DNA of 64,000 bases from Haloferula helveola. Lineage in GTDB: Bacteria; Verrucomicrobiota; Verrucomicrobiia; Verrucomicrobiales; Akkermansiaceae. The stretch is from positions 1 to 64,000 of the forward strand of contig NZ_AP024702.1 of NCBI RefSeq assembly GCF_037076345.1. Direction: 5' to 3'. How positions within the stretch are numbered: the stretch's first letter is position 1; each line of letters begins with the position of its first letter. Below, piece after piece: positions 18,056 to 22,224 of this stretch. The position numbers and the translations under genes were made by a program. The notes beneath the pieces are model-generated. The model was given only the letters and a program-made list of their open reading frames with translations, had not been told where the DNA came from and did not search any database.

Positions 18056-18580
18056 ATGAAAACAATCCTCACCTCCCTCGTGCTCGTCTCCCTCGGTCTG
18101 GCCCAAGCCGCCGATCTCTCGAAATTCGGTGAAGGCGACGCCAAGCTCCGCGAGCGGCTCGCCAAGATTCAGGACAATCCGGCGCCGGAGATCTCGCTCG
18201 ACAACTGGATCAACTCCGACGCCAAGACCCTCGCCGACCTCAAGGGCAAGGTGGTGGTGCTCGACTTCTGGGCGACGTGGTGCGGCCCGTGCATCGCGAG
18301 CATTCCCCACACCAACGAGATGATGGAGAAGTATGGCGATGACGTCGTGATCATCGGCGTGTGCCATCCCCGCGGCGCCGAAAAGATGAAGGCGATGGTC
18401 GAGTCGAAGAAGATCCAGTATCCGGTCGCGGTCGACACCGACGGAGCGGCCGCGAAGGCCTATGCCGTGAACGGATTCCCCGACTACTATATCATCGGCC
18501 GCGACGGCAAAGTCCTGCTCGCCGACTGCGGCAACGGCAACGTCGAGAAGGCTATCGACGCTCTTCTTGAAAGCGAGTGA
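18056..18580 (+). CDS. TlpA-like periplasmic thioredoxin-fold protein
   Basis: 174 residues. A signal peptide MKTILTSLVLVSLGLAQAA precedes an AhpC/TSA-Redoxin type thioredoxin fold. The redox-active WCGPC is at residues 75-79 and the cis-Pro loop is NGFPDYYIIG. It probably reduces disulfides of exported proteins or cytochromes outside the cytoplasm. The DsbD-like protein at 59355 could supply electrons, but that link is inference. The last 29 bases overlap tail-to-tail with the apbE gene on the other strand. An inverted repeat, CGCGG-ATCATT-CCGCG (about 18028-18043), lies just upstream of the start. Confidence 0.93.
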   Translation: MKTILTSLVLVSLGLAQAADLSKFGEGDAKLRERLAKIQDNPAPEISLDNWINSDAKTLADLKGKVVVLDFWATWCGPCIASIPHTNEMMEKYGDDVVIIGVCHPRGAEKMKAMVESKKIQYPVAVDTDGAAAKAYAVNGFPDYYIIGRDGKVLLADCGNGNVEKAIDALLESE

Positions 18581-19430
18581 CGTCGGCTTCGGCCTCGGCC
18601 ACAAATCCTGCCGTCGCCAGCGCGTCCGCCCTGGCACACGACTCCGCTCTCACGGTCACCGGTTCCCCGGGCGGCAACGCCCAGCCGGTTCGGGGGTTGA
18701 TGATGTGTGACCAGAACCCGCGGCTCTGATGCTCCGATCCACTGGTGGCGACCGCCTCGTCCGTTAGAACGATCCCGGATTCCAGCGATCCCCCACCGAC
18801 GACCCAGCCCTCCGCTCCCGGCGCAGCCCCGCTGGCATAGATCTCCCCGCCGAACTCGACGACGAAGTTCCGATAGCCCGAATCACGGAACAGATCGGCC
18901 ATCCGGTCGACCGTGTAGCCTTTCGCGATCGCGGAGAAATCCAGCATCAGATCCCCGTTCCGCTTCGCGACCCTTGCCCCTTCGATCACGAGATTTCGAA
19001 ACCCGCAGGCGCCAAGGGCCGCATCGACCTCCTCCTGCGTGGGTTTCTCCCATCCTTCGCGCCGGTTTGGTCCGAATCCCCACAGCTTCACGAGCGCTCC
19101 GATGGTCGGATCGAAGCGTCCTTCGGTCTCTTCCGACAACCGGGAGGAAAGCTCCAGCAACTCCGCGACCGAGTCGGGCATTTCATGGCCGGACCCGGCC
19201 GCCGCGGCGTTGAATCGGGAGACCCAACTGTCATCGCGCCAGGTCGAGAGATCGCGATCCAAGCCGTCGCACAACACTTCGATCCGGGAGACATCGAACT
19301 CGGCATCACCGACATACTTGATCCGGTAGGTCGTCCCCATCGCCTCACCGGTCAGCACACGGACGCGCTCAGGGTCCCGACAGGCGGTGAGAAGCAGCAA
19401 CGCCACCGGGAAAACAAACGCCGCCTTCAT
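18552..19430 (-). CDS. apbE: FAD:protein FMN transferase (ApbE lipoprotein)
   Basis: 292 residues from ATG 19430. A lipoprotein signal ends at the lipobox LLTAC (Cys17), so it acts at the outer face of the inner membrane. It transfers FMN from FAD to a Thr or Ser of extracytoplasmic target proteins. Family features include EAMGTTYRIKY, LMLDFSAIAKGYTVDRM, FVVEFGGEIYASG, and the late HIINPRTGWAL that helps hold FAD and Mg2+. It overlaps the DUF2271-like gene by 4 bases (ATGA), and that protein contains a candidate flavinylation motif. This strongly suggests that the neighbour is its substrate. Confidence 0.95.
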   Translation of the reverse strand: MKAAFVFPVALLLLTACRDPERVRVLTGEAMGTTYRIKYVGDAEFDVSRIEVLCDGLDRDLSTWRDDSWVSRFNAAAAGSGHEMPDSVAELLELSSRLSEETEGRFDPTIGALVKLWGFGPNRREGWEKPTQEEVDAALGACGFRNLVIEGARVAKRNGDLMLDFSAIAKGYTVDRMADLFRDSGYRNFVVEFGGEIYASGAAPGAEGWVVGGGSLESGIVLTDEAVATSGSEHQSRGFWSHIINPRTGWALPPGEPVTVRAESCARADALATAGFVAEAEADVTRFQEERR

Positions 19431-20407
19431 TCCGCCGCTGGAGCGACCTTCACCAGCAACAGATCGACGAGGCGCTTGGCACTGTCGATGCCCTCGAAAT
19501 CATAGGCAAGCGTTCCACCCTTCTCCGCCTCGCCACCGTGTGCCGTCAATTCGAGCAAGGCATACGCCGCACCCTCCTCCGGCTTGAGATACGCCGTGTA
19601 TAGTAGCGAAGGCTGGCCCACCTCCGAATTAGGAAACGCCTCGTTGCTGTCACCCGCCGCATTGACCTCCACGCAGATCACCATCTCCTCGCCCTCGGCG
19701 AGCTTGAGATACTTGTCGAGGCTGAACGAATGCGAAGGCGTCGAGCCGGTGAAGGCATCGACCTCTCCATTCGGATCGATTCCGGAAACCATCGTGTAGC
19801 GATGACGCCAGATCGGCAGGACCCGGTGACGGCGTGTCTTGACCCCCTGCCACTCCACCTCTTCTCCGTAGGCCAGCGACTCGTCGAGGTAGAGTGTCTC
19901 GATCATTGTCCCGGTCGTCGTCTCCGCCCACACAGCGACCGCCGGCGCCTGCTCCAGGCCATCACGGAAACGCACCAGCAATGAGACCGCCGCGGACCCG
20001 GGCTCGGCCGGTTCGCGGGCGACGAAGCGCTCCGTGTCCTCGGTTTCGAGGAAACCGGCCATCGGGGAAGACCGGACGATCTCGGCGCGATGACGCGCCT
20101 CGTAGCCGGCATCGATGACCTGCTTCGACGGCCAGACTCCACCCACCGCGAGCGCGGCCAGCCCGCAGGCCGACGCCGCGACCAGCGCGACCATCCCCCT
20201 CGACGACTGCTTGCCCTTAAGCTTGCCGGAAAAGTAGCGGGTCCGGGAAACGAGATGCAGGACGACGAGGACGATTGTGAGGAACCCGAAGAAGACGTGA
20301 ACCCGGGTCGTCGCGATCGAGAACGGACGCGTGAACGCCATCACGCCGCTAACCATCAGCGTGAGGAAACTGAAGAGCAGGCCGAAGTTGACCCAGTGGC
20401 GCATCAC
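19427..20407 (-). CDS. Membrane b-heme-like/DUF2271-like protein, probable flavinylation target
   Basis: 326 residues. Two N-terminal transmembrane helices (about 7-25 and 35-53) carry His4, His37 and His51, which could bind heme b as in DUF4405-type membrane domains. A third helix lies at 71-91. The extracytoplasmic domain (about 135-325) resembles DUF2271. It contains DAFTGST at residues 217-223, matching the ApbE target pattern D-x-x-[S/T]-G-[A/S]-T, with Thr220 as the possible FMN attachment site. It overlaps the FAD oxidoreductase gene upstream and apbE downstream by 4 bases each. It would pass electrons between an extracytoplasmic flavin and the membrane. The family call is by recognition and not tested. 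Confidence 0.75.
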   Translation of the reverse strand: MMRHWVNFGLLFSFLTLMVSGVMAFTRPFSIATTRVHVFFGFLTIVLVVLHLVSRTRYFSGKLKGKQSSRGMVALVAASACGLAALAVGGVWPSKQVIDAGYEARHRAEIVRSSPMAGFLETEDTERFVAREPAEPGSAAVSLLVRFRDGLEQAPAVAVWAETTTGTMIETLYLDESLAYGEEVEWQGVKTRRHRVLPIWRHRYTMVSGIDPNGEVDAFTGSTPSHSFSLDKYLKLAEGEEMVICVEVNAAGDSNEAFPNSEVGQPSLLYTAYLKPEEGAAYALLELTAHGGEAEKGGTLAYDFEGIDSAKRLVDLLLVKVAPAAE

Positions 20408-22224
20408 GCTTCGTAGCCAACCAGCTTCTTGAGCTCGGCGACATGTTTTTCACCGACCTCCCGCGGCAGCGCGCCGTGTTTCTTGCAAAGCGCCGCCGCA
20501 TAGCCGGTCGCGAGACCCATCTGGCCGCAGGTCAGCATGACGCGCGGGCCCGACAGCCCGATGTGCGAGCAACTGAAGCAACGTCCCGCCATCATCAGGT
20601 TCGGAATGTTCTTCGAATAGAAACAGCGGAACGGGATGTAGTAGAGTCCACCAGTCTTGCGGAAGATCGCCTTGGACAGGAAGTCGGTCGGGGCACCGGT
20701 CTCCTTCAGCTGGTAGTGGGTGTCCAACTCCCGCTTCTCCTCGACCACCACGTCTTCGAAGGTCCGGCGCTCCGTCGCATCCTTCATCGTGTAAACATAG
20801 TCGCCCATCAGACGGCGCGACTCGCGTTTGCCGCCGACGTAGGCGACCCACTCGAGCGCGACCGTCGCGTTCTTCGGCTGCTTCTTGGCATTGGCGAACG
20901 ACCCGAAGATCGCGCGCAGCATGTGGTCGCGGATCCGCTCGGCATCCTTGACCTGATCGAGGTCGGGCGATGAATACTCCCAGTACCACTCGCCGTTGAT
21001 CGCCGCGTGCTTGCCCGCGACCGGCATCGCCCACGGCACTTCCGGGAAACGCGAGGGGGTCGTCCCCTTCGTCGAATTCCACAAAACGCTGGTGCCCATC
21101 ACCTTGGCATCCGGCTTCTCCGGACTCCAGAGGTCGCCGTGCTTGTCCCAGCCCTCATCGAACTCGCTGCTCGCCTCGCGACCTTCACGGTACTCCGCCC
21201 CGGCCCAGAAGCCGAGCCAACCGTCACCGGTGGCGTCGATGAACACGGGCGCCTTGAAGCGACGGATCTGCCCACTTGTCACCTCGCGGGCCTCGACACT
21301 GGTGATGCGCTCACCCTCCTGTCCGAGCCCGATCGCAATGTGATGGGCGAAAATCTCGACGCCCGACTCCTTCATCGTGCGCTCGCGCTTGTCCTGGTCG
21401 AGCTTCGCCTTGGCGTCGCCGTTCGGGTAATGCTCGGTGTCGATCTTCTTCAGGAGCCCCGCGCCCTTGCCGTGGATTCCGATGGTGTGCACCCGGATCT
21501 CGGCGCTGGCATTGCCGCCGAGCATCGGGCGGTCCTGGATCAGGGCGACGCGAAGCCCTTGCGTCCTCGCCGCCAGAGCGGCACCGCAACCGGACATGCC
21601 GGCACCGACAATCACGACGTCGAATTCATCCTCCTCAATCACCTGGCCGGTGCGACCACTCAGCCGATCCTTCCAGGCCGCGAGCTCCGGCAGATCCATA
21701 TTCGGCAGCTCCGGCTTCTCCTCACGGGTGAAAAACACCGCGTCGCAGCGGCCGTCGAAACCGGTCAGGTCCTCAAGCTCCAAGGCGTGTTCGCCCGCGG
21801 CGTCCACCTCGATCGCGCCGCCCGCCTGCCATGCCCAGCCTTCCTCGGTCCCGAAAACCGGCTCGAGCGCCTTGCCGTCGACCTTGACTCGGAACCGGCC
21901 CGGGGCCTCCCACTCCCCAGGGCACCAGTCGCGCGTCCTTACCCAGACGTACCACTTCCCACCTTCCGGCAGCTTGAACTTCGTCTTGGCATTGGCAACC
22001 GGCTTGCCCATCCCGTGGGCCAGCAGAAACGAGCCGCCCATCTGCTGGTAGAACTGGGTATCGATCACCCAGCCGCCGGGTTCGTCGAAACCACAGGCTT
22101 CGACGAGAACACCCGCCGACCCTTTTCCTTCGGCACCGAATCCGTAGCGCGGTGCGGTGGCGGCGGTGAAGGCAAGGCCTCCGATGATACGGACGAAGCG
22201 GCGGCGGTCGATGGTGTCAGGCAT
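20404..22224 (-). CDS. Tat-exported FAD-dependent oxidoreductase
   Basis: 606 residues from ATG 22224. The N-terminus has a twin-arginine signal RRRFVRIIGGLAF, implying export of the folded flavoprotein. Residues about 35-170 look like a beta-sandwich that may bind carbohydrate (WYVWVRTRDWCPGEW, GEHALELEDL). The FAD domain begins FDVVIVGAGMSGCGAALAA (G207-x-G-x-x-G), followed by MLGGNASAEIRVHTIG, characteristic of the PF12831 FAD-dependent oxidoreductases. It ends with SCSHIGLSGPRVMLTCGQMG. The substrate is unknown; sugars or glycans are a guess from the N-terminal domain. It is the first gene of a three-gene overlapping operon with the DUF2271-like protein and apbE. Confidence 0.87.
   Translation of the reverse strand: MPDTIDRRRFVRIIGGLAFTAATAPRYGFGAEGKGSAGVLVEACGFDEPGGWVIDTQFYQQMGGSFLLAHGMGKPVANAKTKFKLPEGGKWYVWVRTRDWCPGEWEAPGRFRVKVDGKALEPVFGTEEGWAWQAGGAIEVDAAGEHALELEDLTGFDGRCDAVFFTREEKPELPNMDLPELAAWKDRLSGRTGQVIEEDEFDVVIVGAGMSGCGAALAARTQGLRVALIQDRPMLGGNASAEIRVHTIGIHGKGAGLLKKIDTEHYPNGDAKAKLDQDKRERTMKESGVEIFAHHIAIGLGQEGERITSVEAREVTSGQIRRFKAPVFIDATGDGWLGFWAGAEYREGREASSEFDEGWDKHGDLWSPEKPDAKVMGTSVLWNSTKGTTPSRFPEVPWAMPVAGKHAAINGEWYWEYSSPDLDQVKDAERIRDHMLRAIFGSFANAKKQPKNATVALEWVAYVGGKRESRRLMGDYVYTMKDATERRTFEDVVVEEKRELDTHYQLKETGAPTDFLSKAIFRKTGGLYYIPFRCFYSKNIPNLMMAGRCFSCSHIGLSGPRVMLTCGQMGLATGYAAALCKKHGALPREVGEKHVAELKKLVGYEA

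Follow-up and report, generated by a model that had tools for sequence, protein, structure and literature searches.

A three-gene operon of Haloferula helveola encodes a Tat-type FAD enzyme, a DUF4405/DUF2271-like fusion protein and ApbE, and may form a periplasmic redox module

The first 64,000 nucleotides of contig NZ_AP024702.1 of Haloferula helveola (hereafter the window; the whole genome is one contig of 5.68 Mb) contain three co-directional genes on the minus strand, at positions 18552-22224. In order of transcription they encode a flavin adenine dinucleotide (FAD) enzyme, a membrane protein here called the middle protein, and ApbE. The first-pass annotation described an operon with 4-base overlaps throughout, and this is correct: both junctions overlap by 4 bases, given a GTG start for the middle gene. 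An alternative ATG start lies one codon inside the GTG, and would shorten the first overlap. The features are listed in Table 1.

Table 1 Genes, domains and conserved sites of the operon, with positions in the window
Feature	Position	Strand	Basis
FAD_oxidored (PF12831) enzyme, 606 residues, twin-arginine translocation (Tat)-type N-terminal signal	20404-22224	-	Pfam E 3.1e-66; RRxF invariant in 16 long-type homologues
N-terminal β domain of FAD enzyme, about residues 33-190, possibly carbohydrate-binding	21655-22128	-	AlphaFold2 (AF2) strands; weak Golvesin_C; CBM35 protein among Foldseek hits
FAD_oxidored domain, residues 202-600	20425-21621	-	Pfam
Fused membrane/periplasmic protein, 326 residues, GTG start (ATG one codon later possible)	19427-20407	-	Open reading frame, Pfam, alignment, AF2
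Three-helix DUF4405 unit, residues 2-89	20141-20404	-	Pfam DUF4405 at residues 5-53; AF2 helices 2-26, 31-62, 66-89
His37 codon, candidate haem ligand	20297-20299	-	His in 48/48
His51 codon, candidate haem ligand	20255-20257	-	His in 48/48
DUF2271-like periplasmic domain, residues 117-323	19439-20059	-	hhalign probability 95.9, E 6.1e-9; AF2 strands
DAFTGST motif, residues 217-223; codon of predicted flavin mononucleotide (FMN) acceptor Thr223 at 19739-19741	19739-19759	-	Conservation, motif count
ApbE, 292 residues, lipoprotein-type signal, motifs AIAKG, NPRTG, ADALAT	18552-19430	-	Pfam E 5.8e-63

The FAD enzyme scores 224.8 bits against PF12831 (curated cut-off 27) and ApbE scores 213.3 bits against PF02424 (cut-off 25.6). 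The N-terminus of the FAD enzyme, MPDTIDRRRFVRIIGG, is a Tat-type signal with the twin-arginine motif RRRF, which agrees with its earlier description as a Tat-exported FAD oxidoreductase. ApbE begins with MKAAFVFPVALLLLTAC, a lipoprotein-type signal with the lipobox-like sequence LTAC (both signal types were judged by eye). The middle protein belongs to DUF4405 (PF14358), with 30.8 bits against a cut-off of 26.7 (E 4.2e-7), and this domain is matched in all 28 aligned homologues at E<=1. A positively charged loop is found between predicted helices 2 and 3, and the C-terminal domain would therefore face the periplasm. Given this topology and the signals on the other two proteins, the three would come together in the periplasm.

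The C-terminal part of the middle protein gave no Pfam match, including DUF2271, at E<=1 in the window protein. DUF2271 is matched at E<=1 in 16 of the 28 homologues, with a best E-value of 7.2e-5. A DUF2271 search of the 97 genomes of the same family returned eight fused genes, all below the curated cut-off of 27.3 bits, together with 11 canonical DUF2271 genes. When 21 C-terminal domains of fused proteins were compared with nine canonical DUF2271 proteins using hhalign, the alignment covered 103 columns, and the acceptor Thr of one group fell opposite that of the other. Judged by sequence comparison, the C-terminal domain is a diverged relative of DUF2271, lying outside the family by Pfam's own score. 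The DUF4405-like and DUF2271-like fusion suggested at first pass is thus borne out, the first domain by Pfam and the second by profile-profile comparison. No PepSY-like domain (PF03929/PF16357) was matched in the window protein at E<=1, and PepSY_TM appears in one of the 28 homologues (E 0.095). The predicted structure of the middle protein has no match among solved structures at E<=0.001. Its weaker matches are mostly helical and cover residues 1-88, apart from two poor longer ones, and the helical matches may reflect common helix packing.

Conservation was counted in a wider set of 52 open reading frames, the denominators being those with a residue aligned at the position. The invariant columns of an alignment of 28 proteins (A1) include H37, H51, D217 and T223. 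In the wider set, position 223 is Thr in 47/49 and Ser in 1/49, the remaining sequence being a gene fragment. At position 220, Ser is found in 41/49 and Thr in 7/49, and at position 217 Asp in 43/49. FMN is carried by the last residue of the ApbE motif, and since position 223 is both this last residue and the conserved one, it is the expected site and Thr223 the likely FMN acceptor. Thr220, the residue first put forward, is rejected on the same grounds. The proposal that DAFTGST fits the ApbE target consensus, published as [S/T]GA[S/T] (PMC8238504, PMC11334425; statements attributed to these papers and to PMC5615132 refer to excerpts of them), was sound: the window protein has TGST, and in 47/49 homologues the aligned site carries a loose form of the motif. 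The loose motif has a background frequency of 0.054 per 326 residues in 314 neighbouring open reading frames, and occurs once in the middle protein and not at all in the ApbE or FAD enzyme of the window. Its rarity in neighbouring frames, set against its presence at one site in nearly all homologues, indicates more than chance.

Three haem-binding His had also been proposed. Two of these, His37 and His51, are conserved throughout, and the third is rejected, His4 being found in only 12/47. A DUF4405 protein is reported to bind haem b, and is modelled with six helices and four central His. In FezC, a related protein of the ferrosome, such haem sites are modelled as built by a homodimer (PMC11334425). 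Six helices and four central His were not found in one chain here, the middle protein having three helices and two conserved His. With two conserved His rather than three, the haem sites probably need a homodimer, which could restore the four His. The three helices, with the two His 14 residues apart on one helix, fit such a homodimer plan, with one haem at each membrane level.

The fused gene is present in 25/97 genomes of the same family (E<=1e-3) and in 15/387 genomes of the phylum (E<=1e-15), the two sets overlapping. Gene order was read at 51 loci, of which 49 could be assessed, two (L003, L062) having too little contig upstream. At 40 of the 49, a same-strand PF12831-type gene directly adjoins the fused gene, within 282 bases and often overlapping it; in one case (L121) it lies downstream. 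At L065 and L125 one sulfatase gene stands between the two. PF12831 matches are numerous in these bacteria, at 7 to 44 per genome in the 12 genomes searched (counting split and generic Rossmann matches). At such numbers, adjacency to the fused gene is far above chance, with the reservation that related loci are not independent. The pairing recurs in many related bacteria. A twin-arginine motif lies near the N-terminus of 36 of the 42 FAD partners. The others comprise two genes cut by contig ends (L052, L054), three with ordinary secretion-type starts (L121, L125, L126), and a split gene whose first piece has the motif (L124). The last of these (L124:6105-7906) is split over two frames, and is either a broken copy or an assembly error. 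The apbE gene is contiguous at 11/49 loci, following the fused gene in 6 and preceding the FAD gene in 5.

On the basis of gene content and conserved residues, we propose that the operon is a self-contained periplasmic redox module, made up of the FAD enzyme, FMN on Thr223 and haems, and linked to the quinone pool. We hold this to be reasonably probable. ApbE would attach FMN to Thr223 of the periplasmic DUF2271-like domain of the middle protein. The FAD enzyme, folded before Tat export, would take a periplasmic small molecule or carbohydrate as its substrate and exchange electrons with this FMN. From there electrons would pass to b-haems ligated by His37 and His51 in the DUF4405 unit, and on to the membrane quinone pool, a homodimer most likely supplying the second axial haem ligands. 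The chain would thus run from substrate through the FAD enzyme to the FMN of Thr223, then to a periplasmic haem at His37, a cytoplasmic haem at His51 and finally quinone. The outline of the operon logic in the first-pass annotation, in which the fused protein, ApbE and the Tat FAD enzyme work together, is borne out by profile comparison, conservation and gene order; its acceptor residue and its third His are not.

The module has been drawn with electrons flowing into the membrane, and we judge substrate oxidation about twice as likely as reduction. If the flow were reversed, electrons from quinol would reach the haems, then FMN and the FAD enzyme, and finally a substrate in the periplasm; flavinylated fumarate and urocanate reductases work in this way. 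These are published ApbE systems, and they resemble the present one in having an extracytosolic FAD enzyme wired through ApbE-attached FMN (PMC8238504). Their carrier, however, is usually an FMN_bind domain on or beside the enzyme (PMC8238504), whereas here it is a separate membrane protein, and the FAD enzyme here best matches PF12831 in Pfam, not PF00890. Against solved structures, the FAD-binding stretch does match flavocytochrome c fumarate reductases (E 4.5e-5), over the dinucleotide-binding segment only; this segment is common to many FAD enzymes, glycerophosphate oxidases match better, and the long-type enzymes have a conserved core of their own. We regard reverse flow as unlikely.

The structural model of the FAD enzyme (mean predicted local distance difference test score, pLDDT, 65) resembles thiazole synthases, geranylgeranyl reductases, dihydrolipoamide dehydrogenases and halogenases, with Z of 14 to 16 among the matches listed. 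This likeness is that of the general FAD fold, and names no reaction. The suggestion that the N-terminus binds carbohydrate fares less clearly. Golvesin_C is weakly matched in this domain in 5 of the 16 long-type homologues (best E 0.0015) and was not matched in the window enzyme itself, and a CBM35-bearing mannanase is among the Foldseek matches. The domain is compatible with carbohydrate binding, and no more.

DUF2271 proteins are flavinylated by ApbE (PMC8238504). The H. helveola genome has two ApbEs; at E<=0.001 it gave no hits to FMN_bind, NqrB/RnfD, DUF3570 or DUF2271. Among the classes tested, the only candidate ApbE substrates are therefore its two DUF2271-like fusions, that of the window and a second one discussed below. 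ApbE is present in every one of the 25 family genomes that carry the fused gene, but in 60 of the 72 that do not (Fisher p 0.03 over the 97 genomes, relatedness uncorrected). The fused protein is a possible ApbE substrate where FMN_bind and canonical DUF2271 were not found, its gene being present in 9/36 such family genomes. The idea that an orphan ApbE drives the presence of the fused gene was considered and rejected: these 9/36 compare with 16/49 among the other ApbE-bearing genomes, leaving 27/36 unexplained. Of the 85 ApbE-bearing family genomes, 36 lack both FMN_bind and a DUF2271 above cut-off, 27 of them also lacking the fused gene at the threshold used, so that other substrates of ApbE probably await discovery. 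The second ApbE of H. helveola (L069:6080-7846, about 1.696 Mb) forms the C-terminal end of a frame of 588 residues, whose N-terminal half shows a weak Phytase-like match (E 0.0046).

Several observations weigh against the proposed module. Its cofactors are inferred, as are the dimer, the quinone link, the direction and the substrate, and the acceptor loop (residues 214-227) is modelled by AF2 with pLDDT below 50. The FAD partner is not nearby at 7/49 loci, five of them from one genus (L127-L131, two being fragmentary) and two with soluble lipoprotein-like forms (L132, L133). The fused gene is not enriched where ApbE lacks FMN_bind and canonical DUF2271, by the counts given above. The paralogous FAD/fused-gene pair in the same genome (about 1.22 Mb) has no adjoining apbE, and apbE is non-contiguous at 38/49 loci. 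Neither the window protein nor the eight homologues reported reach the Pfam cut-off for DUF2271 (PF10029). The last two points would also be expected if the DUF2271-like domain were not flavinylated at all, ApbE serving another protein and the FAD enzyme donating directly to haem or to a soluble carrier. The motif at the aligned site in nearly all homologues speaks against this, as does the lack of matches to the other tested substrate classes in the H. helveola genome, and we consider an unflavinylated domain distinctly improbable.

The proposed module can be compared with several described systems. Like the PepSY/DUF2271/ApbE clusters (PMC8238504), it combines ApbE, a DUF2271-type FMN carrier and a haem-type membrane protein; it differs in that a DUF4405 unit, joined to the carrier in one protein, makes up the membrane part, and in having a PF12831 FAD enzyme as usual neighbour. 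PepSY-like clusters with ApbE and DUF2271 have been linked to iron reduction (PMC8238504), which raises the possibility that the operon works in the reduction and uptake of iron and not in carbon metabolism. However, the usual partner is an FAD enzyme, and neither a TonB receptor nor an iron transporter is among 19 annotated neighbour proteins (from 12 of the 51 loci, the rest being unannotated); an iron role seems to us highly improbable. DUF4405 cytochromes and FezC (PMC11334425) share with the middle protein DUF4405-type helices with conserved His, the sites of FezC being modelled through a homodimer, whereas the DUF4405 model described there has six helices and four His in place of three helices, two conserved His and a fused periplasmic domain. 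An MsrQ-FMN_bind fusion, also modelled in that work (PMC11334425), likewise places a membrane cytochrome and a flavinylated domain in a single chain, with both domains from other families than here.

In the open-access literature searched, no description of a DUF4405-DUF2271 fusion was found, and the PF12831 accession was found in a single paper, on a Brucella flavoproteome. What is new here is that the fused protein is repeatedly paired with PF12831 enzymes across Verrucomicrobiota-type relatives, and that other tested ApbE substrate classes were not detected in the H. helveola genome. A recurrent membrane partner that would carry electrons makes the anonymous PF12831 family a testable input to the respiratory chain, and the fusion would offer a compact one-chain model for how electrons move between FMN and haem. 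More tentatively, and with some doubt on our part, the operon may represent a previously undescribed class of quinone-linked periplasmic dehydrogenase of Verrucomicrobiota, with carrier and cytochrome in one polypeptide, dedicated to sugar-oxidising PF12831 enzymes, perhaps acting on sugars freed from sulfated glycans. If true, some "orphan" ApbEs would thereby gain a substrate as well.

Some hints as to substrate come from neighbouring genes. The annotated neighbours described above include sulfatases, an ECF-type sigma factor, FecR/LamG proteins, a Planctomycete-type cytochrome gene with DUF1501, GDSL lipases and a SASA acetylesterase domain. Sulfatases were sought in all fetched loci, and in 9 of the 51 (L046, L051, L062, L065, L115, L117, L118, L125, L133) one is in line with the fused gene, the FAD partner or apbE, on the same strand and at most 260 bases away. 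In freshwater Verrucomicrobia, sulfatase genes occur near PSCyt genes, and a carbohydrate role has been suggested (PMC5615132). Three genomes gave 137, 107 and 72 PF00884 matches, the 137 being in H. helveola itself, or about one per 41 kb, and with sulfatases so common the nine loci are only a hint. We do not accept them as proof of the substrate, PF00884 being abundant, the loci including several close relatives, and the count having no random-region control.

The second FAD/fused-gene pair of the H. helveola genome (L058:4676-6902, about 1.222-1.225 Mb) has an FAD enzyme of the short type, and lies beside PSCyt/DUF1549/DUF1553 and DUF1501 genes. In genus g85, three loci (L127, L128, L130) encode fused proteins of full length that have both His and a DGLSAAT motif, and the FAD_oxidored gene is absent from the fetched 11 kb, which suggests that this electron wire can serve other partners. 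Two loci (L132:5082-5780 and L133:4907-5605) encode a soluble lipoprotein-like DUF2271-like domain without membrane helices. Their clusters hold short-chain dehydrogenase-like and oxidoreductase-like genes (named by eye), and at L133 a sulfatase overlaps the end of the soluble gene.

Two further genes flank the operon in the window, and neither gives a hint of the substrate. One is a thioredoxin/ResA-like gene on the plus strand (18056-18580, AhpC-TSA E 9.3e-21), which lies tail to tail with apbE and overlaps its 3' end by 29 bases. The other we take, from its sequence, to encode a TsaD-like protein. A scan of genome contigs also found a related middle protein, with 61-62% identity, on two contigs of one Haloferula assembly.

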